A stretch of 64,000 bases of DNA. Source: Bacteroidota bacterium (GTDB lineage: Bacteria; Bacteroidota; Bacteroidia; Flavobacteriales_D; Crocinitomicaceae). The DNA is taken from NCBI GenBank assembly GCA_016192075.1, contig JACPUU010000016.1:1-64000 (forward strand), in the 5' to 3' direction. The first letter of the stretch is position 1. Each line of letters opens with the position of its first letter. The notes under the pieces are model-generated. The model had not been told where the DNA came from and searched no databases. It saw only the letters and a list, made by a program, of their open reading frames with translations. The position numbers and the translations under genes are program-made. Positions 609 through 16,720 of this stretch are shown here, piece after piece.

Positions 609-1952
609 CTAACTTGGTCTTTCGCATCCTTTCCGGTTATAGTAATACCAGTTAATGATGGTAGCCAGCGCAAAAAATGCGGCAATGGCGTAGAAAAATC
701 CGTTGGCATTTCCGGTTGAAGTCATAACGGCGCTTACTGAAACGGCAAATATAAATGGTCCAAATGCGGCTATTGCAGCTGTCCAGCCAATAACACCGGC
801 AGCCTGGCGCGGATTGTGACCAAAAATAATCGGATACTGTCTGAAGGTTGCGGCATTACCCATACCGGTAATAAAGAATAAGAAAAGCATCAGGTAAAGA
901 AATGCATCAAACTGATCAACCGAAGTTGGAGTAAGAAGACCCATTTGTACCATGGCAATACATCCGCCAATTAACCCGATTCCGGTTAATGTAGTCAAAA
1001 TTGCACCACCTACTTTATCAGCAACAAACCCAAATAACACACGGCTGCTTGCGCCAATCAGCGGCCCCAGGAATGCATATTTTAAAGGGTCCGGCGCACC
1101 GTCAAAACCACCGTAAATAGTTTTGATCAGCAGTGGGAAAATAGCTGCCAGTCCTGAAAATCCACCAAAGGTCATCACATAGGTGAGGGTGCAGAACCAG
1201 GTATGTTTGTCTTTAAAAATATCCATCTGTTCTCTGATCGATGTTTTCATTGGAATACTCTTAATCATGAACCAGGAAGCAATTGCCAGAATAATCAGAA
1301 GCGGTGCATACCAGAAGGCTGCGCTTTGTAAATAGATTTCAGATGTACCAATTATTTCTTGTGTTTTTGGATCTTTATTGGTAAATACTTCAGCCGCGCC
1401 GTAAGTTGCAATACCCAGCATGGCTGGTGTCATAAACTGGGCAACACTCACACCAAAATTTCCGATTCCGGCCTGTATTCCAAGTGCGGTTCCCTGCAAA
1501 CGTTTTGGAAAATACAAACTGGTGCTTGGCATAAATGACGAGAAGTCACCGCCACCGAACCCGGCCGTAAATGCCAGCACCATAAATACCCAAAAAGGAG
1601 TAGTGGTGTTCATAACCGCAAGCCCGAGACCGATTACCGGAATCAGTTTGATAAGCGTTGCTATTGTTATTACGTGGCGTGATCCGTAAATGGGTAAAAT
1701 AAACGTGTGAACGATACGGAGCAGCCCGGCTGCAAGCCCTGGCATTGCTGTCAGCCAGAAAAGCTGATCCTTGTCAAACTTAAATCCGATGCCTGGCAAC
1801 TTGACTGCAATGGCGCTGACCATAAACCAGGTGGCAAATGAAAGTATCAGAGCAAACGTTGTTACTGTTAAGGTTCGCCATGCTCTTTGGCTGCCACCAT
1901 TATTCCAGAAATTAGTGTCTTCCGGAGTCCATTTTTCTAACCAGGTTCCCAT
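609..1952 (-). CDS. narK: NarK-type nitrate/nitrite transporter (MFS)
   Basis: Major facilitator protein of the nitrate/nitrite porter family, predicted to move nitrate in and/or nitrite out across the inner membrane. About 447 residues with around 12 membrane segments. The family signature is clear: FGGGDFSSFMPSTSLYF followed by FPKRLQGTALG and GNFGVSVAQF. The N-terminal WTPEDTNFW stretch before the first helix is typical of the NarK2-like branch. The frame extends to a TTG at 1988, but the ATG at 1952 fits the usual family start better and leaves 25 bp after the upstream transporter, so I prefer it. It is the second gene of a two-transporter operon. Direction and substrate (nitrate uptake, nitrite export or antiport) cannot be read from the sequence. 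Confidence 0.88.
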   Translation of the reverse strand: MGTWLEKWTPEDTNFWNNGGSQRAWRTLTVTTFALILSFATWFMVSAIAVKLPGIGFKFDKDQLFWLTAMPGLAAGLLRIVHTFILPIYGSRHVITIATLIKLIPVIGLGLAVMNTTTPFWVFMVLAFTAGFGGGDFSSFMPSTSLYFPKRLQGTALGIQAGIGNFGVSVAQFMTPAMLGIATYGAAEVFTNKDPKTQEIIGTSEIYLQSAAFWYAPLLIILAIASWFMIKSIPMKTSIREQMDIFKDKHTWFCTLTYVMTFGGFSGLAAIFPLLIKTIYGGFDGAPDPLKYAFLGPLIGASSRVLFGFVADKVGGAILTTLTGIGLIGGCIAMVQMGLLTPTSVDQFDAFLYLMLFLFFITGMGNAATFRQYPIIFGHNPRQAAGVIGWTAAIAAFGPFIFAVSVSAVMTSTGNANGFFYAIAAFFALATIINWYYYNRKGCERPS

Positions 1953-1977
1953 TTTATCAGAGTTTAGTTTATAATTT

Positions 1978-3708
1978 TTATCGTACAATTCGCAAAATCG
2001 GACATGGCGATTCTTTGAATATATTATGTGTTCTGCTGCCCATCAGTAATTTTCCGATTGGTGATGATACGTGGCTGGCCAGGATAATTAATTCAGCTGC
2101 CCGCTCTTTAGCCAGTGTGACAATTTCAGAGGCAACATCGCCTTGTCCAAAAACCACTTCCAGGTTGGTTGCACCAAGCTCTTTTAGTTTTCTGGCTTCT
2201 GAAATAAGCATTTCTTTTCCTTCATTGATCCAGTTTTGACGAACCGTTTCCCACTCGGGAGAATCTGTTGCGAGTACACCGGTGGTGTGGAATTTTTCGT
2301 CCACATAAAGCAGTATCAGTTTTGAGCCGGTTGTTTTGGATAAATAAGCCGCCTGCTCCCGTGCTTTTTCAGCCAGCTGTGAATTTCCAACCGGGTAAAT
2401 GATGGTGCGGTAGGTATAGTGTGGTCCGTGTATCGCTTTTCCGATCGATGCAACTGCAAGTCCGGGAACGTGTGTTTGAATTTCAAATTCAATTTCTTCC
2501 TGTTTGATTTTGGCACGTCCGCCTTTTTCAACCCACACCCGTGTCCATTTGCGTTGTGCAATGCGCAGCACAGCGAAAGCAACCAGGGCAAGAATAGCGA
2601 AGGATAAAAATCCCCAGGTAAATGATCCGCTGTTTTCTTTGGAGATACCCATTGCATTTGGAATAAAACTTCCGCCCAGTGCACCAATTTCACCAATCAT
2701 GCTGCCTGCAACAGCGGTTGCAAGGGGCCACCGCAGCGGCACCAGCTGAAACAAGGCACCATTTCCGGCGCCCAGCGCTGCAAAACAAACCATAAATAAA
2801 ACGGTGGTTGCAACAATTCCGGTTTGAAAACTGGCCCCGACCATACAAATGATAATAATACCAAAGACCGTGGTGAGGGTATTTATGCCGCCCCACTTGT
2901 CTGATGCCCATCCGCCGACAACCCGCACGGCACTTCCCATCAATGCGGCAAGCATGGTTAATTGCCCGGCTTCAATTTTTGAAACACCATATTGATCGTG
3001 GTAATAAGTCGGAAGAAAGTTTGACAACCCGATAAAACCACCAAAGGTGATAATGTAGATCAGGTTAAAGGTCCAGCCGTCTTTTTGGAATAAACAGGCC
3101 AGGTGTTCTTTTAATGATTGTCTTTCACGGTCAGGTGGTTCTTTCGCAAAAATGATCATCACCAGAATTGGCAGCAGCATGAATAATGCACCCATTCCGT
3201 AAACTGCCTGCCAGCCAAATTTTTCAGCCAGCGGCGGGGCAAATAACATGGCCAGCACGGTTCCGCTGTTTCCGGCGCCGGCTATACCCATTGCAAGACC
3301 TTTGTATTTTGGAGGAAACCAACCCGAACCCAATGACAGGGCAACACCAAAACTGGCGCCGGCAATTCCCAGAAAAACACCCATGGCAAGCACATTATTA
3401 TAGCTTGGAACCATCATGAACCCAAAAATCATGGCAAAGAAAATGAGTCCCATTTCTGTAAGTGCTGCATTTTTGCGTCCTATATATTGCGCCAGAACTC
3501 CCAGCGGAAAACGCATAATAGCACCGGCCAGAATTGGTACAGAAATCATAAATCCTTTTTCTGACGGTGACAAATTAAATGTTTCGCTGATGAAAGGCGC
3601 CATGGCGCCATTCAGTACCCATATGGCAAAACAAAAATCAAAATAGATAAAAGAGGCAAAGAGTGTTGGTGGGTGACCCGCCTTCAGAAAAGTTTTAAAG
3701 CTTGCCAT
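1978..3708 (-). CDS. Nitrate/nitrite transporter fused to a UspA domain
   Basis: A 576-residue two-part protein. Residues about 1-405 form a 12-helix MFS nitrate/nitrite porter with the family signature (GASFGVALSLGSGWFPP, then GLAMGIAGAGNSGTV). Residues about 440-576 are a cytoplasmic universal stress protein domain, starting at YRTIIYPV and ending with a nucleotide-binding loop of the GKLLMGS type and SPCPILRIV. The ATG at 3708 is well placed. It is the first gene of the transporter operon; the second follows closely. A Crp/Fnr-like box lies 74 bp upstream. Family knowledge: Usp domains often bind ATP and occur as regulatory tails on transporters. A role in tuning transport to energy state is inference. 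Confidence 0.88.
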   Translation of the reverse strand: MASFKTFLKAGHPPTLFASFIYFDFCFAIWVLNGAMAPFISETFNLSPSEKGFMISVPILAGAIMRFPLGVLAQYIGRKNAALTEMGLIFFAMIFGFMMVPSYNNVLAMGVFLGIAGASFGVALSLGSGWFPPKYKGLAMGIAGAGNSGTVLAMLFAPPLAEKFGWQAVYGMGALFMLLPILVMIIFAKEPPDRERQSLKEHLACLFQKDGWTFNLIYIITFGGFIGLSNFLPTYYHDQYGVSKIEAGQLTMLAALMGSAVRVVGGWASDKWGGINTLTTVFGIIIICMVGASFQTGIVATTVLFMVCFAALGAGNGALFQLVPLRWPLATAVAGSMIGEIGALGGSFIPNAMGISKENSGSFTWGFLSFAILALVAFAVLRIAQRKWTRVWVEKGGRAKIKQEEIEFEIQTHVPGLAVASIGKAIHGPHYTYRTIIYPVGNSQLAEKAREQAAYLSKTTGSKLILLYVDEKFHTTGVLATDSPEWETVRQNWINEGKEMLISEARKLKELGATNLEVVFGQGDVASEIVTLAKERAAELIILASHVSSPIGKLLMGSRTHNIFKESPCPILRIVR

Positions 3709-3781
3709 AACGGAAAATTTTTAGTTCGACTTCAGTTAGTTTGTTTTCAGACAAATGTCGGCACTGAAACAATTCCATTAA

Positions 3782-3795
3782 ATGATATAAATCAT
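3782..3795 (-). promoter_or_regulatory. Crp/Fnr-like operator of the nitrate transporter operon
   Basis: ATGAT-ATAA-ATCAT is a perfect palindrome of the TGAT-N4-ATCA type bound by Crp/Fnr-family regulators. On the transporter strand its core reads TGATTTATATCA. A GACATTTG sequence at 3752-3759, one base off the Bacteroidota -7 form TAnnTTTG, would put the start of transcription near 3747. The box centre would then be near -41.5, the usual class II activator position. The spacing argument is inference. Confidence 0.6.
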
Positions 3796-4093
3796 CAAAT
3801 GAAATAGACTATCTCAGCATTCGCACTTTTTTTTGGCGGGATTATGATTGGGCTCATAGAATGCAGGTTGGTTTTTGGTTGTGCGCTGCTGAGGCAACAA
3901 ATCTGCCGGGTGTATTTTGGAAATGGGTTCAGAAATATACGGATGGAGGATTTTATTCTTTGAGAGAATAACCACCCGTGCATTGATTTCCGGAGGGGTA
4001 TTTTTTTAACTAAAAATGAGGGGCGTCATAGCCTTTCTTGTTCAGGATCGAATTTACCTGAAAACCCGCGGCTGAAGAGGTATTTTAATTTTG
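3796..4093. other. Spacer between the two operators
   Basis: No convincing gene in this stretch of about 300 bases. A 62-codon frame on the minus strand has no recognisable features and crosses the control region. The segment separates the divergent transporter operon and the small surface-protein gene. Confidence 0.5.
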
Positions 4094-4107
4094 CTGATTT
4101 ATATCAG
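4094..4107 (+). promoter_or_regulatory. Crp/Fnr-like operator of the small surface-protein gene
   Basis: CTGAT-TTAT-ATCAG, a perfect palindrome of TGAT-N4-ATCA form, 69-70 bp before the start at 4177. Its core, TGATTTATATCA, is identical to the core upstream of the nitrate transporters when each is read in the direction of its gene. The matching distances (about 74 and 70 bp) suggest both units answer to the same regulator. Confidence 0.6.
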
Positions 4108-4148
4108 TAAAACAACATCGTTTGCCAGCCTGCGATAGTTGAATTTTG

Positions 4149-4169
4149 CTTCAATACTGCTGATTGAAG
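4149..4169 (+). promoter_or_regulatory. Leader hairpin just before the start codon
   Basis: CTTCAAT at 4149-4155 and ATTGAAG at 4163-4169 form a perfect 7-bp stem with a 7-nt loop, ending 7 bases before the ATG at 4177. It could limit ribosome access or stabilise the message. It may also be an operator; the sequence alone does not decide. Confidence 0.4.
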
Positions 4170-4176
4170 TGATTTT

Positions 4177-4419
4177 ATGAAAAAAATACAGATTGCATTT
4201 GTGGCATTGTTTCTGACCGGTCAAACGGTTCTGTTTTCAATGCCGGGACCGGGAACAGGCCCTCCGGGCGGAGGTGGTCCTCCAGGCGGTGGCGGGCCTC
4301 CATGCTGGGCTCCGCCTTGTATACCGGTTGATGGGGGAATTGGCTTGTTATTGCTGGGAGGCCTTTCACTGGGTGTCTACAAAATTGTCAGACATGAAAA
4401 GGACGATCGGAAAAAGTAA
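4177..4419 (+). CDS. Small exported protein with PID-CTERM-like sorting tail
   Basis: An 80-residue protein in three parts. Residues 1-21 are a signal peptide with a hydrophobic core (FVALFLTGQTVLF). Residues about 22-47 are a Gly/Pro-rich linker containing two cysteines. The C-terminus has the motif PVDGG, a hydrophobic segment (IGLLLLGGLSLGVYKIV) and a basic tail (RHEKDDRKK). This is the layout of PID-CTERM-type sorting signals in Bacteroidota, which resemble PEP-CTERM/exosortase substrates. The basic tail means it could also simply stay as a membrane anchor. No exosortase gene is in the window. It has its own Crp/Fnr-like box and converges on the receiver gene at 4448. Function unknown. 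Confidence 0.75.
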   Translation: MKKIQIAFVALFLTGQTVLFSMPGPGTGPPGGGGPPGGGGPPCWAPPCIPVDGGIGLLLLGGLSLGVYKIVRHEKDDRKK

Positions 4420-4447: not shown

Positions 4448-4948
4448 TTATCGTGTTTGTGCCGGCGGCCGCATTCCTGATACACCAGGCGGCGTCAGCG
4501 AATGTTGCTGTTGCTTTAATGCATGCAGCTCATCCCGGAGCAGGCGCTCCAATACTTCACCAACGCGTTCATGTGAATTTCTGTTTTTTGTAACAAATTC
4601 GTAGATACCACGCCGCATGAGTTCTATGGCTGTTTGTATGTTGCTCAGTGAACTAACCATGATTACTTTGCAGCCAGGGCAGGTTTTTTTTACCCGGTTT
4701 AACACATCAGCACCACTTAGTATTGTGCGCTTGTACATGTTAATGAGGTAATAATCGAGAAACATAATGCTGGTGTCTTTTTCCAGTTCCCGCAAGCAGT
4801 CATGCGCTGTCAGGTATGTCTTTATTTCAAAATCAAAACTGCTGTAAGCTGAAGAATTGCAAACAGATTGAACGTATTTTTCAAGAGACTTGTTAAAAAA
4901 GATATCATCTTCCACGATTACGATCTTTATTCTTTTTTTTGCGTTCAT
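4448..4948 (-). CDS. Stand-alone receiver protein with CxxC
   Basis: A 166-residue single receiver (REC) protein with no output domain. Acidic pocket D14-D15, likely phosphoacceptor D65 (FLDYYLIN), S99/S100 after strand 4 and conserved K121 (FVTKN). The usual proline after the phosphoacceptor is replaced by a YYL stretch. Residues 90-93 are CPGC, just before strand 4. The last 25 residues form a Gln- and Pro-rich tail with no known fold. It aligns well with the receiver at 7741 over its whole REC part. It follows the membrane-anchored receiver by 42 bp and probably shares its sigma-54-type promoter. It could shuttle phosphate from an Hpt protein or bind a partner; no target is visible. Confidence 0.85.
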   Translation of the reverse strand: MNAKKRIKIVIVEDDIFFNKSLEKYVQSVCNSSAYSSFDFEIKTYLTAHDCLRELEKDTSIMFLDYYLINMYKRTILSGADVLNRVKKTCPGCKVIMVSSLSNIQTAIELMRRGIYEFVTKNRNSHERVGEVLERLLRDELHALKQQQHSLTPPGVSGMRPPAQTR

Positions 4949-4990
4949 ATAATTTTAGTTTAGAAGTGTACCTGCTTAACATTGCCTGTT

Positions 4991-5581
4991 TCAGGTTTGC
5001 TTATCGCCAAAAATGTCGCTTTCTACCGGGTCTTTGAAAAAGAGTATCACTGCAAAAAGTGCAATCCAAATAATACTGAAGGGAATGAGAAGTTCAGGAC
5101 GTGATTTTCCAAGATACAGGAACCCGGCTGTTATAGCAACAATAGTTGCCAGTATGGTCAGTTTCAGAAATCGTTTGCTCATTTTTTGTTTCATCGTCCG
5201 GAGATGGATTTGAACCCGGCGTGTTATTTTTTCCAGGAACTGATCATCTCTCAGAACAAAATCTGCTGCACCTTTCCGCATCAGGCTTAATATAAGGTCA
5301 GCGCTCTGCAGTGAAGAATACATAATTACAGGAACGCAGCTATACTTTGATTTAAAGCGCTGCAGCACATAGTCACCATTCAGTTTGTTGCGGGTGTCAT
5401 TGGTAAGCAGGTAATCTGTCAGAATAATGTCCGGCTTTTCATTTCGTGTATCATGAATACATTCCAGCGCACTTCTGAAAAGACGGGTGGTACAGTTCAT
5501 CGTCTTTTTCAGTTTCCGGCTTATCAGCAGTAAATTGAACGGATCGTCGTCTACTATATAGATGATGTATTTTGTTTCCAT
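4991..5581 (-). CDS. Membrane-anchored receiver domain protein
   Basis: About 196 residues from the ATG at 5581. Residues 5-125 are a receiver domain with acidic D11-D13, phosphoacceptor D56 (ILTDYLL) and S89/S90. The conserved lysine is replaced by arginine (R111 in FVLRDD). After a basic stretch, two hydrophobic segments (about 140-157 and 164-182) form a membrane hairpin, followed by a short acidic tail. An alternative ATG at 5599 would lie only about 10 bases past the expected transcription start of the sigma-54-like promoter, so 5581 is preferred. A receiver tethered by a C-terminal membrane hairpin is unusual. The protein may sequester or present a phosphorylated receiver at the membrane. 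It is followed by another receiver gene. Confidence 0.82.
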   Translation of the reverse strand: METKYIIYIVDDDPFNLLLISRKLKKTMNCTTRLFRSALECIHDTRNEKPDIILTDYLLTNDTRNKLNGDYVLQRFKSKYSCVPVIMYSSLQSADLILSLMRKGAADFVLRDDQFLEKITRRVQIHLRTMKQKMSKRFLKLTILATIVAITAGFLYLGKSRPELLIPFSIIWIALFAVILFFKDPVESDIFGDKQT

Positions 5582-5618
5582 AATACCTGTTTTAGACATG
5601 CTTGGTTGGTGAATCAGA

Positions 5619-5634
5619 AGCCAAGTCTGTGCCA
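5619..5634 (-). promoter_or_regulatory. Sigma-54 (-24/-12) promoter of the membrane receiver gene
   Basis: On the minus strand the sequence reads TGGCACAGACTTGGCT, matching 15 of 16 positions of the sigma-54 consensus TGGCACRNNNNTTGCW, including the essential GG-N10-GC. Transcription would start near 5608, leaving a leader of about 27 bases to the ATG at 5581. An NtrC-type activator that would be needed for such a promoter is encoded immediately upstream (5856-7205). Confidence 0.7.
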
Positions 5635-5651
5635 GTTATGATGGGTTGGGA

Positions 5652-5690
5652 TATAAGTATGTAAAACACTTATAAACAATGTCTTATAAA
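5652..5690. promoter_or_regulatory. Repeated motifs upstream of the sigma-54 promoter
   Basis: A perfect inverted repeat, TATAAGT (5652-5658) and ACTTATA (5668-5674), plus a direct repeat CTTATAAA at 5669-5676 and 5683-5690. Their position, about 18-56 bp upstream of the -24 element, suits an activator or operator site. It is closer than most NtrC-type enhancers, so this is a candidate only. Confidence 0.4.
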
Positions 5691-5855
5691 TGCGTTTTGA
5701 GATGGGTGGAATTCACATTTTTGTGCTGAAAATTGCCATTTTGGGAAGAATAAACTCAATTTGACGGGAACCCGTTTACCCGGTTGAAAAACAGTTCAGA
5801 TTGAAACAATGGAATTATACCGGATGGAATGCACAGGGATTGTTTTTGCAATGAA

Positions 5856-7205
5856 TCACCGTAGTTTTTTCAGCATCCGGTAAATGGTTGATTGACCAAT
5901 GTCCAGTTTTTGGGCCACCAGTTTAATATTGTCGTCGTATTTTCGAAGATAGGCTTTCAGAATCTGGTATTCATAATCCTTCATGGTGAGTTCTTCGTTC
6001 ATAAGACTGTTCAATACATCCATTCCGTTGAGGTTTATTTCAGAAGCCTGAATCTCCTGACCGGTACTCATAACAACCGCTAATTCAACAACAGATTTAA
6101 GCTCCCGCACATTTCCGGGAAAGGAATGGGAGAGCAGCTTTTTCTGAGCTTCTTCTGAAAGTGATTTGTGCGGGATAGCATTCTCATGGCAAAAGGTTTC
6201 AATAAAATGTTTTGCCAGCAGCAGAACATCTTTTCCCCGTTCACGAAGTGGTGGAAGTTCAATGGAAATACCATACAACCGGTAAAATAAATCTTCACGA
6301 AATTTACCAGCGCTGACTTCATGCTGCAGGTTGCGGTGTGTGGCAGCAATGATGCGGCAATCTACCTTAACAGGGGTATTACTTCCTATTCGTACAATTT
6401 CTTTTTCCTGAAGTGCCCTTAGTAACTTTGCCTGAAACTGGATATCCATTTCACCAATTTCATCTAAAAAAAGTGTTCCGCCGTCAGCCTCTTCAAATTT
6501 TCCAATTCGCCGGGCACTTGCTCCTGTAAAGGCACCCTTTTCATGACCAAACAATTCGCTTTCAATCAAATCAGCCGGAATAGCGGAAAGATTGACTGCC
6601 ACAAACGGTTTGTTTTTTCGCGCAGAATTGTAGTGAATGGTTTTGGCAGCGACCTCTTTACCGGTGCCGGTTTCTCCGGTAATGGTAACAGTTATGCTTA
6701 CCTGAATGGCTTTTTGAATCAGCTCATTGGTACTTTCAATAGCCGGACTGGTTCCGATAATAGAAGACTGAAAATCATATTTTTTTTGCACTTCTTTTTC
6801 AAGAAGCGATATGCGTGTTTTGAGCGTTGAACTTTTTTTGATATTGTTAACCGTACTCAGCAAGCGGTCACGGATTTCTTTTTCCTTGACAATGTAATCG
6901 TAAGCTCCGCTTTTGAGAAGTTCTACCGCTGTATTGATGTCGTCCTGTTCTGAAATAATGATTACTTCAGCATCCGGATTTATTTCTTTGATTCGTTGAA
7001 GAACCTGATTTCCGTTCATGTTTGGAAGACGGTAGTCAAGCGTAATGATGTTGGCCGGTTCACCTTTGTAGTTGAAATACTCCATTGGGCTGTGAAAGCC
7101 TCGGATTACATAATCAGGATTCAACGAAAGGGTATGAATGAGCAGCCGGTTGTACCATTCATTGTCTTCAATTACGTGTATTATAAGTGAGTCTTCGCGT
7201 TTCAT
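5856..7205 (-). CDS. NtrC-family sigma-54-dependent response regulator
   Basis: A 449-residue activator with three domains. REC spans 8-125 with phosphoacceptor D57 (TLDYRLPNMNG) and K107. The AAA+ domain spans about 145-375 with Walker A GETGTGKE (177-184), the sigma-54-contacting GAFTGA loop (224-229) and Walker B GGTLFLDEI (242-250). A Fis-type helix-turn-helix ends the protein (about 415-449, LVAQKLDIGQSTIYRMLKK). All residues needed for ATP hydrolysis and sigma-54 contact appear present. It should bind enhancers and open sigma-54 promoters when phosphorylated. The Hpt gene lies 39 bp upstream, probably in the same operon, and a sigma-54-like promoter lies just downstream. No partner kinase is adjacent. 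Confidence 0.93.
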   Translation of the reverse strand: MKREDSLIIHVIEDNEWYNRLLIHTLSLNPDYVIRGFHSPMEYFNYKGEPANIITLDYRLPNMNGNQVLQRIKEINPDAEVIIISEQDDINTAVELLKSGAYDYIVKEKEIRDRLLSTVNNIKKSSTLKTRISLLEKEVQKKYDFQSSIIGTSPAIESTNELIQKAIQVSITVTITGETGTGKEVAAKTIHYNSARKNKPFVAVNLSAIPADLIESELFGHEKGAFTGASARRIGKFEEADGGTLFLDEIGEMDIQFQAKLLRALQEKEIVRIGSNTPVKVDCRIIAATHRNLQHEVSAGKFREDLFYRLYGISIELPPLRERGKDVLLLAKHFIETFCHENAIPHKSLSEEAQKKLLSHSFPGNVRELKSVVELAVVMSTGQEIQASEINLNGMDVLNSLMNEELTMKDYEYQILKAYLRKYDDNIKLVAQKLDIGQSTIYRMLKKLR

Positions 7206-7244
7206 TTTCCACCTGAGTTTGGTAAGTAACTGATATCACTGAAT

Positions 7245-7607
7245 CTATTGGTTGTCAGGCAACAATTTTTTTAAGTCAAGAATCAGTTTATCCGTCAATA
7301 TTCGGGCTTCTGATACCAGTTTTTCCAGGTGCGCACGGTGGGTGGTCTGATCAGCAGTTTGTTCAATTTTCTTAAGTACTGCATGAAGGTTCAGGGCCCC
7401 CATGTGCAGGCAGGGTGTTGCTATTTTATGGGCGTAGGCAGAAACTACCTTAAAATCTTCTTTTTTGAGTGATTGTTCAATTTCATCAAGTCCTGACTGG
7501 GTGGTGTTTATAAAAATACCAATCATTTCTGTCACAAATTTCTCGTCGCCTTCGCTCAGACGCTCTAATTCGTCCAGGTTAAACGCTTTGTCTGCATCAT
7601 TTTCCAT
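7245..7607 (-). CDS. Hpt (histidine phosphotransfer) domain protein
   Basis: A 120-residue, all-helical stand-alone Hpt protein. The phosphorylatable histidine is H60 in AYAHKIATPCLHMGA, followed by the usual leucine-rich helix (VLKKIEQTA). Hpt proteins relay phosphate between receiver domains, so this one is a likely intermediate between the hybrid kinase at 11492 and one or more local receivers. It lies 39 bp before the sigma-54 activator gene and 133 bp after the receiver gene at 7741, with a palindrome in that gap. Confidence 0.85.
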   Translation of the reverse strand: MENDADKAFNLDELERLSEGDEKFVTEMIGIFINTTQSGLDEIEQSLKKEDFKVVSAYAHKIATPCLHMGALNLHAVLKKIEQTADQTTHRAHLEKLVSEARILTDKLILDLKKLLPDNQ

Positions 7608-7664
7608 AACATCGTCGGGGGTTTATGAATAGATTCAGATAATCTCAGTATGCAGTGAACGATT

Positions 7665-7683
7665 TATCAGTATAGTACTGATA
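7665..7683. promoter_or_regulatory. Perfect palindrome upstream of the Hpt gene
   Basis: TATCAGTA-TAG-TACTGATA, arms of 8 bp with a 3-bp centre, 57 bp before the Hpt start. Its size and symmetry suit an operator bound by a dimeric regulator. It could also fold as a small hairpin. No known regulator family was matched. Confidence 0.45.
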
Positions 7684-7740
7684 TTTATTTACTTAGGACA
7701 TGTGGTATTCCTTTAAAGTTACGGCCAATTAATCAAAAAG

Positions 7741-8442
7741 TCAAGTTTGTCCGCAACTTTCTTTTACAATATTCTCTACCACACTGCAACTGTTAAAGAA
7801 TGCCTGGCGGTCTTTCAGAATAAAATGATAGGCGCCCTGATCCAATGTCTGATAACAGGTTTTTGCGTTTCTGATCTGTGAGATAACAATGACTTTGCAG
7901 TGTCTGCATTTTTCTTTAATAGCTTCGAGCATTTTCAGCGCATTCATACTATCACCCAGGTAATAGTCAAGAATGGCAATGTCTGTTTCTTCTTTCAGAT
8001 TCCGTAAACAGTCATACGCACTGGTATATGAATTAATTTCAAAACTACATCCCCTTTCAGATGCCAGATCTTCTGTAAATCTTTTGAGTTGGCGGGTGAG
8101 CATGTTGTTGTAAAATTCATTGTCATCCAGCACAACTATTTTAAAGTGCCGTTTCAAAGTTTCCATGGTGTCCTTTTTTGGTTTTTTGTGTTTGCGTCCT
8201 TTTTTTTCAGGAATCGCTTCCTGCTCAATAAATGCAGCAAATTCTCTTCCTGAACTTTTTGTCTTTTGCAGATGGTGGCCGGGGCCGGGTGGAATAATAA
8301 AATTATCCATACAATCCACGCCAATTGTCTTGAGGCAATAAGACAGCGGTTCAGTCACGGTTACCTGAAATTTTTTAAAAACAAGGTACGTGTTGTGTAA
8401 TGGATGCGTAGCCCCCCGGGGCATAATGTGCCTGGTCTTCAT
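7741..8442 (-). CDS. Stand-alone receiver protein with N-terminal extension
   Basis: The open frame gives 233 residues. The receiver starts at residue 93 (METLKRHFKIVVLDD) and aligns end to end with the receiver at 4448. Numbering from residue 93, it has D14-D15, phosphoacceptor D67 (AILDYYLGD), S96, K118 and a CRHC motif at 87-90. The first 92 residues have no known domain and include PPGPGHHL and a very basic KKGRKHKKPKK stretch just before the receiver. They have no stop codon and look like normal coding sequence, so the ATG at 8442 is listed. The ATG at 8166 would give a receiver-only protein matching its paralogue and cannot be excluded. Confidence 0.72.
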   Translation of the reverse strand: MKTRHIMPRGATHPLHNTYLVFKKFQVTVTEPLSYCLKTIGVDCMDNFIIPPGPGHHLQKTKSSGREFAAFIEQEAIPEKKGRKHKKPKKDTMETLKRHFKIVVLDDNEFYNNMLTRQLKRFTEDLASERGCSFEINSYTSAYDCLRNLKEETDIAILDYYLGDSMNALKMLEAIKEKCRHCKVIVISQIRNAKTCYQTLDQGAYHFILKDRQAFFNSCSVVENIVKESCGQT

Positions 8443-8475
8443 AAACTATTGCATTGAAAAAAACAATTTTACAGG

Positions 8476-8491
8476 CCCAAATACTGTGCCT
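8476..8491 (-). promoter_or_regulatory. Weak sigma-54-like element before the receiver gene
   Basis: The minus strand reads AGGCACAGTATTTGGG: a good -24 part (GGCACA) and a TTG at the right distance, but GG instead of the required GC at -12. It lies about 34 bp before the ATG at 8442. It may be inactive or chance. Confidence 0.25.
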
Positions 8492-8603
8492 TGCGGTGCC
8501 TGAAAAACGGGTGATTTGAAAACTCCTGATGCCAGCGGGTTGTGGCATTTATCACGTAAAAACAGTAAATCACAGGCTTTTTCATTTTGAAAAAGAAATG
8601 GTC

Positions 8604-8666
8604 AAAAAAAGAGAGCCCGGCCTGTTATTTCTGTGTTTTTAGTTGCAGAAGCAGAAAGCCGGACTC
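8604..8666 (-). terminator. Rho-independent terminator of the Usp operon
   Basis: On the minus strand a GC-rich stem (GAGTCCGGC at 8666-8658 pairing with GCCGGGCTC at 8621-8613, one mismatch) encloses an inner TTTCTG/CAGAAA pair. The outer stem is followed by seven T residues at 8610-8604. It begins about 60 bases after the stop of the UspA gene at 8725. Confidence 0.85.
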
Positions 8667-8724
8667 CCTTATTTACCTCGCGTCGATTTTCGTTTTTCCG
8701 TATTCCCCAAAGGGCCGGCTCCGG

Positions 8725-9549
8725 TTAATGAATTGCCAGAATCGGCAGTTTGGAATGGAAAGTCAGGCTTCGGGTAACGCTGTTATTGAACAGGTAATAG
8801 AATGGATTGTGTTTTTGCGGACTAAGCATAATCAAATCGGTTGGATTATTTTTGAAATAATCTTCCAGTTCACGCACGGCATCAATACCATCAATATAAA
8901 CGGTGCTGTGAATGAGGTTGTTGAATTGCAGTTCCTGCTGTACATGGTGCGCCATTTTGTAAGAAACATCTACAGCTGAAAGGTCGCCCACATTTACAAT
9001 TTCAAGGTTGGCATGAAATACCTGGCAAAAGAGTTTTGCTTTATATAAAAGTTCAGCCTGACCACTTTGTTCAAGATCACAGGCAAACGAAATGCGCCGT
9101 ATGGGTTTGTATGAAACTTCAGACGGAATAATAAATGTTGGAATGGTTTGGTTTCGGGCTATGGTAAGTGCAGTGCCGCCTATGAAACGTTCTTTCAGCG
9201 GGCCTGCTTCACCAAAAACGCCCATCACAATAATGTCAGCCTTGGCAGTTTGGGCGGTGTTGGTGATGATTTCAAATTCTGATCCTATTCCGGAAACGCA
9301 TTCAATGGCAAGCCCGGTACCGTGTTTTTTCAGAAGCCGCTCTTTCAGGTTCTGAAGAGACTCCTGTGACATGGCATACATTTGTGAAATGGTTTCCTGT
9401 GAAAACGGAACATCGTAAGATACTGACATTAATGAACAGGCGTTTACCAGAACCATGCGGGCGCCAAAAAAATGGGCCAGCCCCGCTGCATATTCTGCTG
9501 AATTTTCTGCAGCGGCTGAAAAATCGGTAGGAACAATAATTGTTTTCAT
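8725..9549 (-). CDS. Tandem universal stress protein (UspA-UspA)
   Basis: A 274-residue protein with two Usp domains. The first (1-142) starts with KTIIVPTDFS and ends with PTFIIPS. The second (about 148-274) starts at IRRISFACD and ends with LPILAIH. The first domain keeps a Gly-containing loop (ERFIGGTALTIARN) near the nucleotide-binding position; the second lacks the classic GxxG-N9-GS motif, so it may have lost nucleotide binding. Cytoplasmic. It follows the GNAT-nitrilase gene by 23 bp and ends in a strong terminator, so the two form one operon. Usp proteins of this double type are common in Bacteroidota under starvation or low oxygen; that role is inferred. Confidence 0.9.
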   Translation of the reverse strand: MKTIIVPTDFSAAAENSAEYAAGLAHFFGARMVLVNACSLMSVSYDVPFSQETISQMYAMSQESLQNLKERLLKKHGTGLAIECVSGIGSEFEIITNTAQTAKADIIVMGVFGEAGPLKERFIGGTALTIARNQTIPTFIIPSEVSYKPIRRISFACDLEQSGQAELLYKAKLFCQVFHANLEIVNVGDLSAVDVSYKMAHHVQQELQFNNLIHSTVYIDGIDAVRELEDYFKNNPTDLIMLSPQKHNPFYYLFNNSVTRSLTFHSKLPILAIH

Positions 9550-9572
9550 AACGCGGAAGTTTTAGTTACTAA

Positions 9573-11225
9573 TTAATCATTCAGGATACTTGGATTGAGA
9601 AAATTGAAAATGGTTACTGTTTGAGGGTCTCTTTTTTCTGGTTTTATGCGACCCTGAAGTTCTTTCTTTTTCAGTTCATACAAGTCTGTCCGCCGGTCCA
9701 TCAGGTTGCGCACGCTGCCCTGTAATCTTAATTTTTTTAACAGGTCAAGCTGCACATCAACAATCAGAACTGTTTCAGAATTTGGCGTAGCTTCAGCTTT
9801 TATTCCATTGGTCGGGAACGAAAAATCAGAGGGTGTATAAACAGCCGATTGCGCATATTGAATATCCATGTTATGCACTTTTGGCAAATTTCCAACACCA
9901 CCGGCAATGGCGACGAAACATTCATTTTCAATAGCTCTTGCCTGTGCACAGGTTTTAACGCGGGTGAATGCGTTTTGCGTGTCTGTCAGAAACGGAACAA
10001 AGAGAATTTCCATTCCTTCAAGCGCAAGTAAACGGGCCAACTCCGGAAACTCAACATCGTAACAAACCAGGATTCCGATTTTACCTGAATCGGTATCATA
10101 CACTTTGAGTTTATTACCGCCCACAATACCCCAGGAATTTACCTCATTGGGCGTTACATGGATTTTGGTGTACCGTTCAATAGACCCGTCTCTGCGGCAC
10201 AGGTACCCGACGTTATAAAGCTTTCCACCTTTGATAAAAGGCATGCTGCCGGTGATAATATTCACATTATAGGCAATGGCGTAATCAATAAATTTGTCGC
10301 GCAAAACTTCAGTAAAAGAAGCCAGGCTGCGTATTGCTTCAGCTTGTGTCTGGTGATTGAAATCAGCCATCAGCGGAGCCATAAACATTTCAGGAAACAG
10401 GATAAAATCAGAATGGTAACCTGCCACGGTATCCACAAAAAATTCAATTTGCTCACACAAGGCATCCAGGTTATTGAACGAGCGCATTTCCCACTGAACC
10501 AAACCAATGCGGGTGTTGTTTTTTCGCTGACCAACCATGTTTGACGGTTTGGTGTAGAGCACGTTGTGCCATTCCATCAGCGTAGCATGTTCTTTGGATT
10601 CGGCATCACCGGGCATATAATCAACCAGCAGTTTTTTGACATGAAATTCATTGGATAACTGAAACGAAAGTACCTGGTCATGTATCTCTTTCATTTTTAC
10701 TTTCTGAATGTATTCTTTAGGGCTCAGTTCAGATGAATAGTCAGCATAGTTTGGAATGCGGCCGCCAAAAACAATTGATTTCAGATTGAGCCGTTCACAA
10801 AGTTCCTTGCGGGCATCATACAACCTGCGCGCCAGCCTTAATCCGCGGTACTCAGGGTGAACAAAAACCTCAATACCGTAAAGAACATCACCACCGGAGG
10901 TATGCGTTGAAAAGGTAAAATCGCCCGTAATTTGTTTATAGGTGTGATCATCACCAAATGTTTCGTAGTTGACAATGATCGATAATGCTACCCCAACCAC
11001 CCTGTCGTTGAATAAAACAACAATCTGACCTTCGGGAAAAATGCTCAGCAGTAATTTAATGTGGCTTTCAGCCCAAACAGAACCGTGCCATTTTTTATAG
11101 GCCTCGGTCATTGAATCACGTAAACCCATATAATCATCCAGGCGCAGGTTTCTGACTTCAATTTTTTTTGCCTCAGTTACCTGGGGTTTTTTACCGTTCA
11201 ATGGTTTTTTCAGTGTGCGTTGCAT
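9573..11225 (-). CDS. GNAT acetyltransferase-nitrilase (carbon-nitrogen hydrolase) fusion
   Basis: A 550-residue bifunctional protein. Residues about 24-180 form a GNAT domain with the acetyl-CoA loop region VFVHPEYRGLRLARRLYDA. Residues about 237-520 are a nitrilase-superfamily amidohydrolase with the catalytic triad E279 (LFPEM), K354 (YTKIH) and C388 (LVCYDVEFPELA). The fusion is a known arrangement in several phyla, but its substrate is not established; amide hydrolysis linked to acyl transfer is inferred from the domains. The first 20 residues are basic and may be unstructured. It leads the operon with the Usp gene. A sigma-54-like element lies about 65-80 bp upstream. Confidence 0.92.
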   Translation of the reverse strand: MQRTLKKPLNGKKPQVTEAKKIEVRNLRLDDYMGLRDSMTEAYKKWHGSVWAESHIKLLLSIFPEGQIVVLFNDRVVGVALSIIVNYETFGDDHTYKQITGDFTFSTHTSGGDVLYGIEVFVHPEYRGLRLARRLYDARKELCERLNLKSIVFGGRIPNYADYSSELSPKEYIQKVKMKEIHDQVLSFQLSNEFHVKKLLVDYMPGDAESKEHATLMEWHNVLYTKPSNMVGQRKNNTRIGLVQWEMRSFNNLDALCEQIEFFVDTVAGYHSDFILFPEMFMAPLMADFNHQTQAEAIRSLASFTEVLRDKFIDYAIAYNVNIITGSMPFIKGGKLYNVGYLCRRDGSIERYTKIHVTPNEVNSWGIVGGNKLKVYDTDSGKIGILVCYDVEFPELARLLALEGMEILFVPFLTDTQNAFTRVKTCAQARAIENECFVAIAGGVGNLPKVHNMDIQYAQSAVYTPSDFSFPTNGIKAEATPNSETVLIVDVQLDLLKKLRLQGSVRNLMDRRTDLYELKKKELQGRIKPEKRDPQTVTIFNFLNPSILND

Positions 11226-11287
11226 AGGATTGTGTGTTAAGGGTTAAGTAAAAACGAATCATGCCTATGACCGGGTACAAAACATAC

Positions 11288-11303
11288 GGCAAGCACCATG
11301 CCT
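11288..11303 (-). promoter_or_regulatory. Sigma-54-like element before the GNAT-nitrilase/Usp operon
   Basis: The minus strand reads AGGCATGGTGCTTGCC. It has the required GG-N10-GC and a full TTGC at -12, with mismatches at the first, sixth and last consensus positions. Transcription would start about 50 bp before the ATG at 11225. Confidence 0.45.
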
Positions 11304-11491
11304 TGAGTTAGTATGCTTGTTGTCAATTAGTTGTGATTTTGTAAAATACCGTTTGATTCCCGAAATGAGAATCTTTTTTCTTTTTGGAAATCAAATTGAC
11401 AGGAAACCAATGAATGGTTTTTGATGCGCCCTGAAAACTGTTTTTGTGTAATCATCAACTTATTCCTAAACGGAATGAGCATGGATGTTTA

Positions 11492-13915
11492 TTAACGGCT
11501 GGCCTGCAGAATCTGCATCATTTTTGTAAAGAGTGTATTTTCAGTAAACGGTTTTGAAATGTAACCGTTCATGGTAGCTTCACGGCATTTTTCTGCCTCG
11601 CTGGCAAATGCATGTGCTGTTAAAGCAATAATAGGTGTGTTTCTTTTTTTTGGTGAAATGTGATTGCGTATGGTGTGTGTGGTTTCATAGCCATCCATTT
11701 CGGGCAGTTGAATATCCATCAGTATAAGATCGAATTTTTTCTGCCGGGCTTTTTTAACGGCTATTTTACCGTTTTCTGCAATGTCTACGACGCATTTCCA
11801 GCGCTCCAGCATTTTGGTGGCAAGCATCTGGTTAAAGGTATTGTCTTCAACCAGCAGAACTTTGGTACCCTTTAACGGAAATTCCAACGAATCTTTCTGT
11901 TGTTTTTTGATTTGATTTCGGGCGACGCGTGCTGATTTTTTAAAGGCCAGGTTAAACACAAAAGTAGTGCCTTTATTTAAAGTGCTTTTTACGGAAATTT
12001 TTCCACCCAGAAGATCAATCAACTGCCTGGTAATGGCCAATCCCAGCCCGGTACCGCCAAATTTACGTGAGGTGTCATCTGAGGCCTGGGTAAAACTTTC
12101 AAAAACCCGTTCAAGACTGTCTGGCGGTATTCCAATACCGGTGTCTGAAACCTCAAACTGCAGTTCTGTTTTGTTTTTGCTGTTTGTAATGGCTGATACC
12201 TTGATTTTTATTTTTCCCTCATTGGTGAACTTAATGGCATTGTCAAGCAGGTTAGTCAGTATCTGGTTCAGCCGGGTTGGATCTCCAACCAGGTTTTCAC
12301 TGACATCGGCATTCAGTCTTACCTGCAGCGCCAGGTTTTTTTCTGTGACTTTTGGCCGCATGAGTTCAACCAGTGTTGCCATGAGCTGTTTCAGGTTGAA
12401 CGGAATGGTTTCAAACGTGATTTTTCCGGAGGCCATTTTGGATATGTCCAGAATGTCATTGATAATTACCAGCAGGTTTTCGCCGGAAGTGTGAATAGCG
12501 TTCAGGTATTGTTTTTGCTCTTCCGGCAGATCTGATTTCAGCATTAAATTGGTAAAGCCTATAATGGCGTTCATGGGTGTACGTATTTCATGACTCATGT
12601 TTGCCAGAAAACGTTCTTTTACTTTAAGTGACTCTTCCAACAACTCCTTGGCTTTATGCAGTTCTTCCAACGCCATGTTCCCGTTTTCAATAGACATTTC
12701 TGCAATGTCATTGGCAAGTATCAATTCCTGTTCGGCCCGTTTTTGTTTGCTGATATCAGAGTCTATGGAAATTATTTTATTCACTTCTCCTTTTTCATCC
12801 AGGATAGGTGTGAGGGATGTAAGCACCCAGTATTGGGTACCGTCTTTTGCAAAATTTTTGTTCTCATACGACAAGGGTTTTTTATCCCGGCGAATGATTT
12901 TGTATAGGTCTGTTTCGGGCGAAAGTCCGGTGTTTTTGCCCCTTCGCAATATTTCGCCGTAGGTTCCTTTTACATCTTCAAGTTTATACCCGGTCAATTT
13001 GGTAAAACCGTCGTTGACCCATTCTATTTTTCCGTCTTTGTTTGCAATTATGACCGCATTGTATGATTTGATAGCCACCATGGCCAGTTGTTCAAGTTCT
13101 TCTTCTTTTTTTCGTACGGTAATATCCTGTTCGGTACCGGCAATGCGTATTGCAGCGTCCTGTTCTGACACGACAAGTTCACCCCGGGTGTGAATTTCAC
13201 GGGTTTTTCCGGTTTGTGTTACAATGCGGTGAAAAAAGTCAAAGGGCTGAAAATTTTTGATGGACTGATCAATTGTTCTGGTTACATTTTCCCGGTCATC
13301 GGGATGAATAAAGTCAATAAATGCATCATACGCTATTTTAAGTTTATCTGACTCTATTTCCAGAATATTGAGCAATTCTTCTGAGGCGGTAATGGTATTT
13401 TCACCCACTACCCATTCCCAGCTTCCAATGTGGGCCAGCTTTTGGGCCTGCGCCAGTTTTTGCTTTTCACGTAAAAGATCGGCAGTCCGTTCTTCCAGTT
13501 TTTTTGTATTCTCTGATAGTTCTTTTAGCAGTTTAAACCGCTGAATGCTATAGTCAATAGAGCGTTTGAGTGCATCAGCACCCAGTTTGCCTTTGATCAG
13601 AAAATCCTGCGCACCCAGTTTAACGGTATTCATTCCGATAAGCTCATCTTCCAACCCTGTAAGTACAATAATCGGTCTTTCCGGAGACGCTGCAAAAACA
13701 GATTTGAATGTGTCGATGCCACTGCTGTCAGGCAAAGACAGGTCAATGACAATAATATCAAAATTGTTGTTTTTAATGTGTTCCAGTCCGGCGCTTAACG
13801 AATCAGCCAGGGTAAGTGAGGCTTTGTGCAGGTACATTTCTTTCAGGTAAATGTAAATCAGCCTGGAATCTGCTGCGTTGTCTTCAATAAGAAGTATGTT
13901 AATTGACTCTTCCAT
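11492..13915 (-). CDS. Hybrid sensor histidine kinase (REC-PAS-PAS-HK-REC)
   Basis: An 807-residue soluble hybrid kinase with no membrane segment. Order: REC (6-125, phosphoacceptor D58), a coiled linker, PAS (about 160-268, ending in a PAC-like TEQDITVRKK), PAS (about 277-395), HisKA with H442 (NMSHEIRTPMNA), HATPase with N-box (N555, N559), G1 DTGIG and G2 GGTGLGL (620-626), and a C-terminal REC (685-800, D734 in LILMDIQLPEMDG). The two receivers mean it can take part in a multistep phosphorelay, with the nearby Hpt proteins as likely partners. It starts 6 bp after the PAS kinase gene, in an operon with the genes to 16720. The signals sensed by the PAS domains are unknown. Confidence 0.95.
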   Translation of the reverse strand: MEESINILLIEDNAADSRLIYIYLKEMYLHKASLTLADSLSAGLEHIKNNNFDIIVIDLSLPDSSGIDTFKSVFAASPERPIIVLTGLEDELIGMNTVKLGAQDFLIKGKLGADALKRSIDYSIQRFKLLKELSENTKKLEERTADLLREKQKLAQAQKLAHIGSWEWVVGENTITASEELLNILEIESDKLKIAYDAFIDFIHPDDRENVTRTIDQSIKNFQPFDFFHRIVTQTGKTREIHTRGELVVSEQDAAIRIAGTEQDITVRKKEEELEQLAMVAIKSYNAVIIANKDGKIEWVNDGFTKLTGYKLEDVKGTYGEILRRGKNTGLSPETDLYKIIRRDKKPLSYENKNFAKDGTQYWVLTSLTPILDEKGEVNKIISIDSDISKQKRAEQELILANDIAEMSIENGNMALEELHKAKELLEESLKVKERFLANMSHEIRTPMNAIIGFTNLMLKSDLPEEQKQYLNAIHTSGENLLVIINDILDISKMASGKITFETIPFNLKQLMATLVELMRPKVTEKNLALQVRLNADVSENLVGDPTRLNQILTNLLDNAIKFTNEGKIKIKVSAITNSKNKTELQFEVSDTGIGIPPDSLERVFESFTQASDDTSRKFGGTGLGLAITRQLIDLLGGKISVKSTLNKGTTFVFNLAFKKSARVARNQIKKQQKDSLEFPLKGTKVLLVEDNTFNQMLATKMLERWKCVVDIAENGKIAVKKARQKKFDLILMDIQLPEMDGYETTHTIRNHISPKKRNTPIIALTAHAFASEAEKCREATMNGYISKPFTENTLFTKMMQILQASR

Positions 13916-13921
13916 AATTCG

Positions 13922-15778: not shown

Positions 15779-15861
15779 AAACAACCGGTTGCATTTCTGT
15801 TACATTAAACTCATCCTGTAGCTGGCATACAGGTTCTGTTATCCTGATCTGTTGTCCTTGT

Positions 15862-16254
15862 TCACAGGTATTGTTTTAACCATTCTTTTGCCTTCTCTTC
15901 ATCGGTAAACATGCGGGTAGGGTAAGGCTGCGTTTTTATTCTGAAGAAAATATTTGCAAGCATTTTTCCAAGCGGTGAATCTGAAATCATAGCCAGTGCC
16001 TTTACAAATTTTGGAAATTCATTGGCCGCGTAATCGCGCACTTCTTTTGATGTTTCGGGTGAATTGGTGACATCCATGAGTAAACAAATTTTTTTCCCTT
16101 TAACAAGTTTCATAAATGCTTCAACTGTTTTTTTGGACTGTTCCAGTGATTGTGGTTCGTGCTTTTTTGAGATGGAGCAAAGAATGCCATTTTCATCATA
16201 CCAGAAGCTGGAAGTTTCCCAATGTGTAACGTTTACATTTGTGGGTATTTTCAT
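15862..16254 (-). CDS. Small STAS/SpoIIAA-like protein (DUF7793 type)
   Basis: About 130 residues from the ATG at 16254. A longer frame to a TTG at 16296 would overlap the upstream receiver gene, so the ATG is preferred. The pattern WYDENGILCSI, then VKGKKICLLMDVTN, then PYPTRMFTDEEKAKEWLKQYL is that of small STAS/SpoIIAA-like proteins that sit beside signalling genes in Bacteroidota. These are soluble proteins with no known enzyme activity. The gene lies between an Rcp1-like receiver and a PAS kinase, so a role as partner or modulator of the relay is plausible but inferred. Confidence 0.75.
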   Translation of the reverse strand: MKIPTNVNVTHWETSSFWYDENGILCSISKKHEPQSLEQSKKTVEAFMKLVKGKKICLLMDVTNSPETSKEVRDYAANEFPKFVKALAMISDSPLGKMLANIFFRIKTQPYPTRMFTDEEKAKEWLKQYL

Positions 16255-16270
16255 AATGCGTGTCAGGTTT

Positions 16271-16720
16271 TCAGTTTTTTTCCGGCAGCCTGACAATGGT
16301 CAGCCAGAAGTTTTCAATGGTGCGTATTACGGTAATAAACTGGTTAAAGTCAACCGGCTTTACAATGTAACAATTGGCATGGTGTAAATACGTACTCAGA
16401 ACGTCGTTCTCAGCAGAGGAAGTTGTGAGAATAATGACCGGAATACATCTCAGTTCTTTATCTTCTTTTATTTCAGTCAGCACTTCGCGCCCGTCCATTT
16501 TAGGCAGGTTCAGATCCAGCAGAATAATGTCAGGTGTACTTACTGTGTTGTATTTGCCGTCTTTTTTAAGATAGAGCAGGGCCTCTTCACCGTCCATCAC
16601 CACGTTCAGTTCGTTTTTTATTTTCCCGTCTTTAAACGCTTCCTGCGTGAGACGTATATCGCCCGGGTTATCTTCTACCAGTAATATGTCAATAGGTTTT
16701 GATTTGTCTGAGTAACTCAT
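16271..16720 (-). CDS. Rcp1-like single-domain response regulator
   Basis: A 149-residue stand-alone receiver of the Rcp1/CheY-like group. Acidic pocket at E16-D17, phosphoacceptor D69 (ILLDLNLPKMDGREVL), T99/T100 and K121 (YIVKPVDFNQF). No output domain. It is the first gene of a four-gene operon with the STAS-like protein, the PAS kinase and the hybrid kinase. Family knowledge: Rcp1-type receivers accept phosphate from phytochrome-like PAS/GAF kinases, which agrees with the kinase two genes downstream. Unusually for this window it has a strong ribosome binding site (16727-16736). Confidence 0.92.
   Translation of the reverse strand: MSYSDKSKPIDILLVEDNPGDIRLTQEAFKDGKIKNELNVVMDGEEALLYLKKDGKYNTVSTPDIILLDLNLPKMDGREVLTEIKEDKELRCIPVIILTTSSAENDVLSTYLHHANCYIVKPVDFNQFITVIRTIENFWLTIVRLPEKN

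Follow-up and report, generated by a model that had tools for sequence, protein, structure and literature searches.

Paired FNR-type boxes between divergent nitrate transporter and PID-CTERM genes, and a predicted low-oxygen regulon, in a Bacteroidota genome

Genes for nitrate reductase (narGH), the cbb3 oxidase, cofactors, and Fe-S repair are the usual content of FNR regulons, and the recognition helix of FNR reads E..SR, as is also seen in the Escherichia coli protein. At both the narK and the narGHJI promoters of E. coli, FNR binds at −41.5 (PMC3688515). DNR, NnrR, and HcpR belong to the same superfamily, with a similar DNR box and nitrogen-oxide targets, and are described without the FNR cysteine motif (PMC1274295). 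In Flavobacterium psychrophilum, the −7 element occupies positions −12 to −5 (PMC9723704), and a metatranscriptome study placed the Crp/FNR proteins of a Flavobacteriales metagenome-assembled genome (MAG) near MalR, not FNR (PMC8510549). A separate point of comparison is the pairing of PID-CTERM proteins with the exosortase XrtX (NF046080, NF046081), for which the term 'PID-CTERM' was not found in the literature searched. In F. johnsoniae, xrtF, which encodes a different type of exosortase, is reported to have a role in biofilm and surface colonization (PMC10936215).

Here, we report an analysis of a 64-kb stretch of DNA (the window) from a genome of 4.65 Mb in 22 contigs. The window holds only two exact copies of the core TGATTTATATCA, at 3783-3794 on the minus strand and at 4095-4106 on the plus strand, each heading one of two divergent genes, a minus-strand transporter gene and a plus-strand gene of 80 codons, which are separated by a gap of 468 bp. 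Box 1 (3782..3795, minus strand), of the FNR type, spells ATGAT-ATAA-ATCAT on the plus strand and heads a pair of transporter genes, with TGATTTATATCA read on the minus strand in the direction of the narK-type gene (start at 3708); box 2 (4094..4107, plus strand; CTGAT-TTAT-ATCAG) is read on the plus strand towards the ATG of the PID-CTERM gene at 4177. A preliminary description of this DNA gave the coordinates, gene calls, and distances correctly; its 74 and 70 bp from the two starts are edge distances, and the box centers lie 80.5 bp (narK side) and 76.5 bp (PID-CTERM side) from the start codons. The boxes had also been called perfect palindromes, which is true of their 5-bp arms, perfect inverted repeats in both cases, but not of the 4-bp center, TTAT. 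The further claim that a chance match of the 12-bp core is very improbable stands as well, with about 1e-4 copies expected in a 470-bp gap under a dinucleotide model; the sharing of one oriented core by two divergent genes on opposite strands is confirmed as a real observation, far from chance. An origin of the two boxes by inverted duplication was rejected, as 36 of 72 aligned bases agree, with little agreement outside the core. No Rfam match at gathering threshold was found anywhere in the window. Comparison of the gap with the promoter of the PID-CTERM paralogue on contig C2 and with the other fetched DNA yielded two likenesses only, namely, a 28-bp stretch at C12 that includes a box and the narK-side promoter of a related locus (L047), in which the promoter sequence is kept at 81% over 88 bp.

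The first transporter gene (1978..3708, minus strand; 576 aa) encodes a NarK-type MFS nitrate/nitrite transporter with a C-terminal universal stress protein (Usp) domain; its best profile match, TIGR00886, falls below the curated cut-off, and PF07690 and PF00582 are above theirs. The second (609..1988, minus strand; 459 aa) encodes a NarK/NarU-type transporter that stays below the cut-offs of both TIGR00886 and the NarU model and exceeds that of PF07690. Because the two genes overlap, they probably form an operon, and a relative of the second transporter is encoded downstream of narK-Usp at nine of the ten Bacteroidota loci compared. Full-length or nearly full-length matches to narK-Usp also occur in deltaproteobacterial and elusimicrobial MAGs, with 63-74% identity in the best segment, a distribution across phyla that may point to inter-phylum transfer. 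In the MAG of one locus (L048), narK-Usp is directly preceded by another NarK-type copy (2483-3757), which seems to be shorter. At the start of the contig, the window contains a repeated coding-like stretch (87-449) in which the motifs KKIKIGTQITR and YLKASTS recur.

Genome-wide, nine exact cores were found versus about 1.1 expected from the dinucleotide composition of the window and contig C22. Eight of the nine lie between genes, or seven if counted strictly, since the core at L008 lies in the TTG-started extension of an ORF and is intergenic only if translation begins at the downstream ATG. The extended pattern ATGAT-N4-ATCAT occurs at 21 sites versus about 9 expected from the dinucleotide model, of which 15 are between genes (14 if a 94-aa ORF at L106 is real) and six inside ORFs, in a genome that is about 90% coding as estimated from the window and C22. 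When intergenic composition is used, with the intergenic share set at 10%, the expectation is 0.63 for the extended pattern and 0.12 for the exact core. The motif is thus not equally common inside genes. For the loose pattern TGAT-N4-ATCA, about 120 of the 215 sites are expected, and most of them are therefore background. All these expectations come from Markov models; reversed patterns gave 0 sites versus 9 for the exact core, 2 versus 21 for the extended pattern, and 16 versus 215 for the loose one, and were dropped as background because the rarity of a reversed word can have other causes. Among the intergenic exact cores with one clear target, six of seven point at the gene (that at L009 points away, and L004, being ambiguous, was left out), too few to say whether the fixed orientation is meaningful. 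Raw counts of ATGAT-N4-ATCAT in ten relatives range from 12 to 25 in the five with narK-Usp and from 5 to 23 in the five without it; as these ranges are not separated, the box count alone proves nothing in relatives.

The preliminary description proposed a genome scan for the core, and the box-bearing gaps it returned adjoin an FNR-type gene set. Contig C22 encodes, over curated cut-offs, narG, narH, moaA, an RIC-type Fe-S repair gene, and a tryptophanase-type gene, along with a moeA-type gene below the MoeA cut-off and two Crp-type genes, and boxes stand in the gaps before many of these. Elsewhere, boxes were found near ccoN of the cbb3 oxidase and a gene for a beta-propeller protein (both over a cut-off), and near ferredoxin-like, heme-binding-type, and receiver-Crp hybrid genes (named from sequence reading only). 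ATGAT-N4-ATCAT hence appears to mark an FNR-like low-oxygen gene set that includes narGH, the cbb3 oxidase, ric, moeA, and the gene of the candidate regulator itself; a narrow search of open-licence papers found no description of such a regulon. An exact core also lies 82 bp upstream of the receiver-Crp hybrid regulator gene (L005, 1501-1512; G000:C13:8478-8489), and this hybrid may constitute a second layer of the same regulon.

The geometry of the narK promoter is that of an activated promoter of the E. coli type, as far as it can be predicted. A −7 element, GACATTTG (3752..3759, minus strand), which agrees with TAnnTTTG at five of six positions, lies 29 bp from the center of box 1, and a transcription start near 3747 is predicted from it. 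TAnnTTTG, with five of six positions or better, was found exactly 29 bp from the box center in 14 of 27 promoters, namely 7 of 20 from the same genome and all seven from narK relatives, the latter being homologues related by descent and not independent; every other offset was seen in at most three promoters, and in 1000 shuffles of the 27-promoter set, no offset exceeded four. The other 13 promoters, including that of the regulator's own gene, are without the element at 29 bp. The 20 promoters were hand-chosen from the exact and extended intergenic sites, two divergent sites being counted both ways and C10:1015, C22:82050, the rightward side of L004, and the coding-region sites being left out; the seven relatives are those of the ten Bacteroidota loci that have an exact proximal box, and three of the ten (L049, L052, and L054) come from genomes that are also among the five narK-Usp relatives. 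With the −7 element at −12 to −5, as in F. psychrophilum, the 29-bp spacing puts the box center at −41.5, a class II position, and the narK promoter thus has what a class II FNR promoter should have, an inverted TGAT-N4-ATCA near −41.5, here relative to a predicted start. The placement is shared: an exact TGAT-N4-ATCA lies 57-80 bp upstream of narK-Usp at seven of the ten Bacteroidota loci and an imperfect one at 62-118 bp at the other three. In other phyla, none of 11 loci has an exact box within the stretch searched, the start codon being uncertain in two of them. A matrix built from 22 of the sites of the 27-promoter set, window sites excluded, gives box 1 a score of 22.0 bits, the best in the window, compared with a minimum of 14.3 and a median of 19.9 for the training sites, which were not scored leave-one-out.

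Which protein reads these sites? A search for Crp/Fnr-family regulators, likewise proposed at the outset, gave seven matches to HTH_Crp_2 in the genome, of which six are over the cut-off and the seventh reads as an Lrp/AsnC-type protein. We favor the 236-aa FNR-type regulator encoded at 16632-17342 of C22, a different contig from that of the window, about 3 kb from narG. Its cysteines C11, C14, C23, and C112 are candidate cluster ligands: in an alignment with E. coli FNR (27% identity over 194 residues), CxxC faces CxxC and C112 faces C122. The third cysteine is spaced as C-x8-C, with x7 in the other nine homologues, and not as C-x5-C. The four cysteines to be expected of a [4Fe-4S] protein, C11, C14, C22/23, and C112 (±1), are present in the sequences of all ten close homologues. 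The curated Fnr model NF008365 gives 83.3 bits, with a cut-off of 228, so that the protein is not an NCBIfam Fnr member; judged from its sequence, it perhaps works like FNR. In its recognition helix, ETTIR, the E and R of the E. coli ETISR are kept and S is replaced by I, a departure from E..SR that might fit a box starting with ATGAT rather than TTGAT if the helix-DNA contacts of FNR are a guide.

Close, nearly full-length homologues of the C22 regulator (48-56% identity, E-values of 4e-69 or better; delimited on E-value and coverage rather than from a tree, as identity alone does not separate them) are present in 9 of 99 relatives, including all five with narK-Usp; the 99 all come from outside the genus of our genome. 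The next homologue, in G075 (50% identity over 210 residues), has neither the four cysteines nor an upstream box; the homologue in G026 (L180) has a stop in frame and lost its N-terminus in parsing and was left out of the cysteine and box counts. In seven of the nine relatives, the regulator is encoded within 10 kb of a NarK-query match on the same contig, this match being narK-Usp in G050, G036, G009, and G057 and a weak NarK-like sequence (21-32% identity) in G041, G024, and G059; in G014, the regulator and narK-Usp are encoded on separate contigs, and the NarK query had no match in G038. An exact TGAT-N4-ATCA lies 54-94 bp before the regulator's own start in all ten cases, our genome included. 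This box is nearer −63.5 than −41.5: among the regulator homologues, the −7 element is best placed at 51 bp (−63.5), in five of ten, and ccoN also has it at 51 bp. Class I autoregulation is a possible reading of the −63.5 box.

The genome encodes other Crp-type proteins that could be the main readers of the sites, a receiver-Crp hybrid (L010, L012) or a protein encoded near nrdDG (L014), in which case regulation may respond to NO or to a histidine kinase rather than to oxygen. An E..IR helix is common to all three, so that each could recognize this site. At the L012 gene, an exact core is found at a distance of 82 bp upstream, and narK-Usp is immediately preceded by a same-strand Crp-type gene in L050, L051, and L058 and faced by a divergent one in L053. 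We consider this assignment unlikely, as the L010, L012, and L014 proteins are without the four cysteines, whereas the C22 regulator gene has a conserved box of its own and its homologues accompany narK, a co-occurrence that was tested for the C22 protein alone.

Taken together, the box, its fixed 29-bp spacing to the −7 element, the conservation of the box upstream of both narK-Usp and the regulator gene, and the joint occurrence of regulator and narK-Usp are computational observations. Crp/Fnr-type control of the nitrate transporter genes, in itself an ordinary arrangement, is well supported by the conserved box, the −41.5 spacing, the co-occurring and mostly linked regulator, and the shared gene set. 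We consider it likely that one FNR-type regulator, probably the protein encoded on C22, recognizes both sites, with class II activation of narK from −41.5. Under this model, for which we infer cluster binding, oxygen sensing, and the direction of control, the regulator would, without oxygen, carry an Fe-S cluster held by C11, C14, C23, and C112, dimerize, and bind ATGAT-N4-ATCAT. Bound at −41.5 of the narK promoter, it would substitute for a −33 element and recruit RNA polymerase, so that nitrate uptake would be switched on with the nitrate reductase, the cbb3 oxidase, the cofactor genes, and the Fe-S repair gene. Box 2 would probably give the same regulator access to the PID-CTERM promoter.

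A second box that faces a divergent gene is not peculiar to the window; exact ones are present at four of the ten Bacteroidota narK-Usp loci (L052, L053, L054, and L056). The box at L052 (1640-1651) has the same 12-mer core, pointing at a partner gene 64.5 bp away, and that at L054 (5523-5534) stands 94.5 bp before a partner that, on reading, resembles that of L052. At L053 (5835-5846), the partner of the second box is a Crp-type gene, its start taken as a TTG 54.5 bp away, and at L056 (3286-3297), where the proximal box of narK is imperfect only, it lies 197.5 bp from the first ATG of a cytochrome-c-like gene and has TACTTTTG at 29 bp. The mirror-image layout thus recurs with different partners. 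An alternative is that narK is served by both boxes, with the distal one in an auxiliary upstream role, and that the PID-CTERM promoter is unrelated; in L047, L051, L052, L053, and L054, narK-Usp is preceded by more than one exact box, the additional ones lying 44 to 412 bp away from the proximal box. However, the distal boxes of L052, L053, and L054 are located 54-95 bp before the divergent gene and can be read as its own, and the distal box of the window is 312 bp from the narK box and adjoins another gene, which makes an auxiliary role quite improbable.

The gene headed by box 2 (4177..4419, plus strand; 80 aa) encodes a candidate small surface protein that belongs to PID-CTERM by NF046080 (29.6 bits, cut-off 26). 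The genome has two PID-CTERM genes, and the window copy, 52% identical to its C2 paralogue, stands alone, without an adjoining exosortase. The C2 paralogue abuts an exosortase gene over the XrtX cut-off (185 bits, cut-off 170), so that an exosortase partner is present in the genome; an XrtF label for this exosortase was rejected, as the XrtX cut-off was passed. PID-CTERM matches were found in 19 of 240 genomes of the family, and an exosortase-like ORF with an ECNG motif at 12 of 24 PID-CTERM loci within the short stretch examined. Adjoining the window gene, at 4448-16720, is a dense run of genes for response regulators, an Hpt protein, a sigma-54 activator, and hybrid-kinase-like proteins (kinases named from reading).

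Compared with the narK side, the PID-CTERM side is weaker, and the claim in the preliminary description that one Crp/Fnr-type regulator ties the two together has to be divided: it is well supported for the nitrate transporters by the box, the −41.5 position, and the linked regulator, and only partly for the surface protein, with a box of 14.6 bits and no −41.5 geometry. The best −7-like element of the PID-CTERM gene, GAATTTTG (4141..4148, plus strand), is 40 bp from box 2, implying −52.5 and a predicted transcription start near 4153, and at 29 bp one position of six agrees, which is not the class II arrangement. As the −52.5 geometry differs from that of class II promoters, the effect of box 2 could be weak, opposite, or nil. 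The same offset is seen at the leftward gene of L004 and at the genome's own fnr-type gene (five of six positions each). The three offsets of 29, 40, and 51 bp differ by steps of 11 bp, about one helical turn, a pattern that is suggestive only, from few promoters.

Is box 2, then, a chance or non-working match, with the narK box alone functional and the PID-CTERM gene outside the regulon? Box 2 is without the A...T flanks and, at 14.6 bits, is near the training minimum, two other sites in the 64 kb scoring as high or higher, one within an ORF and the other being the narK box; it also has no −7 element at 29 bp. The window copy is the only one of 24 PID-CTERM genes with TGAT-N4-ATCA within 300 bp upstream and, in an overlapping set parsed from 31 loci, the only one of 25 with an exact box within 250 bp. 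The zero of 23 and zero of 24 among the others include five copies in regulator-bearing genomes (G024, G038, G041, and G059 have both the regulator and PID-CTERM genes, and none of their five copies has an exact box), so that the link is at most a lineage-specific event; the five narK-Usp relatives gave no PID-CTERM match. Against these points, the core of box 2 is identical to the narK core over 12 bp, with about 1e-4 copies expected in the gap, and it lies 76.5 bp from a start, with a −7-like element. Divergent-facing second boxes recur at four loci, including the same 12-mer at L052, and those of L052 and L054 are likewise without the 29-bp element. A non-functional box 2 is accordingly a substantial possibility, though somewhat less likely than not. 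As a separate observation, a site at 40699, inside ORF 39039-40805, has a matrix score of 17.4, higher than box 2.

That the PID-CTERM gene is under the same switch as narK is a fair prediction for this single genome, drawn from the 12-bp identity, the 76.5-bp position, and the second boxes at four of ten narK loci, with the chances for and against it about equal. More tentatively, and with somewhat less than even confidence, we suggest that an orphan exosortase substrate has been captured by a low-oxygen regulon, which would allow oxygen-gated surface display of a second PID-CTERM protein through XrtX during nitrate respiration. On this view, the region opposite narK would repeatedly serve as an entry point into the regulon, with one regulator gaining a distinct partner gene in each of several lineages, and the box may be able to function at atypical distances such as −52.5. 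Given the role of xrtF in biofilm and colonization in F. johnsoniae, surface display under respiratory control is a reasonable idea, no more.

These results outline a concrete low-oxygen regulon for nitrate-respiring Flavobacteriales, with a predicted box, regulator, and fixed box-to-TAnnTTTG spacing, and this spacing carries the −41.5 rule of E. coli to a phylum with a different core promoter; if the PID-CTERM half is true, an exosortase substrate would be under respiratory control. The closest described system is class II activation of narK by E. coli FNR, with which the window shares the inverted TGAT-N4-ATCA site, its center at −41.5 (here predicted), the target classes of nitrate transporter and nitrate reductase, and a regulator with alignable cysteines. 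Unlike in E. coli, the flanking base is mostly A (ATGAT instead of TTGAT), the −7 element is the TAnnTTTG of Bacteroidota, the regulator is 27% identical to FNR and has an ETTIR helix, and the transporter is fused to Usp. DNR, NnrR, and HcpR are less similar, as the C22 candidate, with four alignable cysteines, does not share their absence of a cysteine motif. On the other side of the gap, the window protein resembles the PID-CTERM/XrtX system in exceeding the NF046080 cut-off, and its C2 paralogue is encoded directly before an exosortase over the XrtX cut-off; the window copy differs in having no adjoining exosortase and in carrying an exact FNR-type box, which no other copy examined has.
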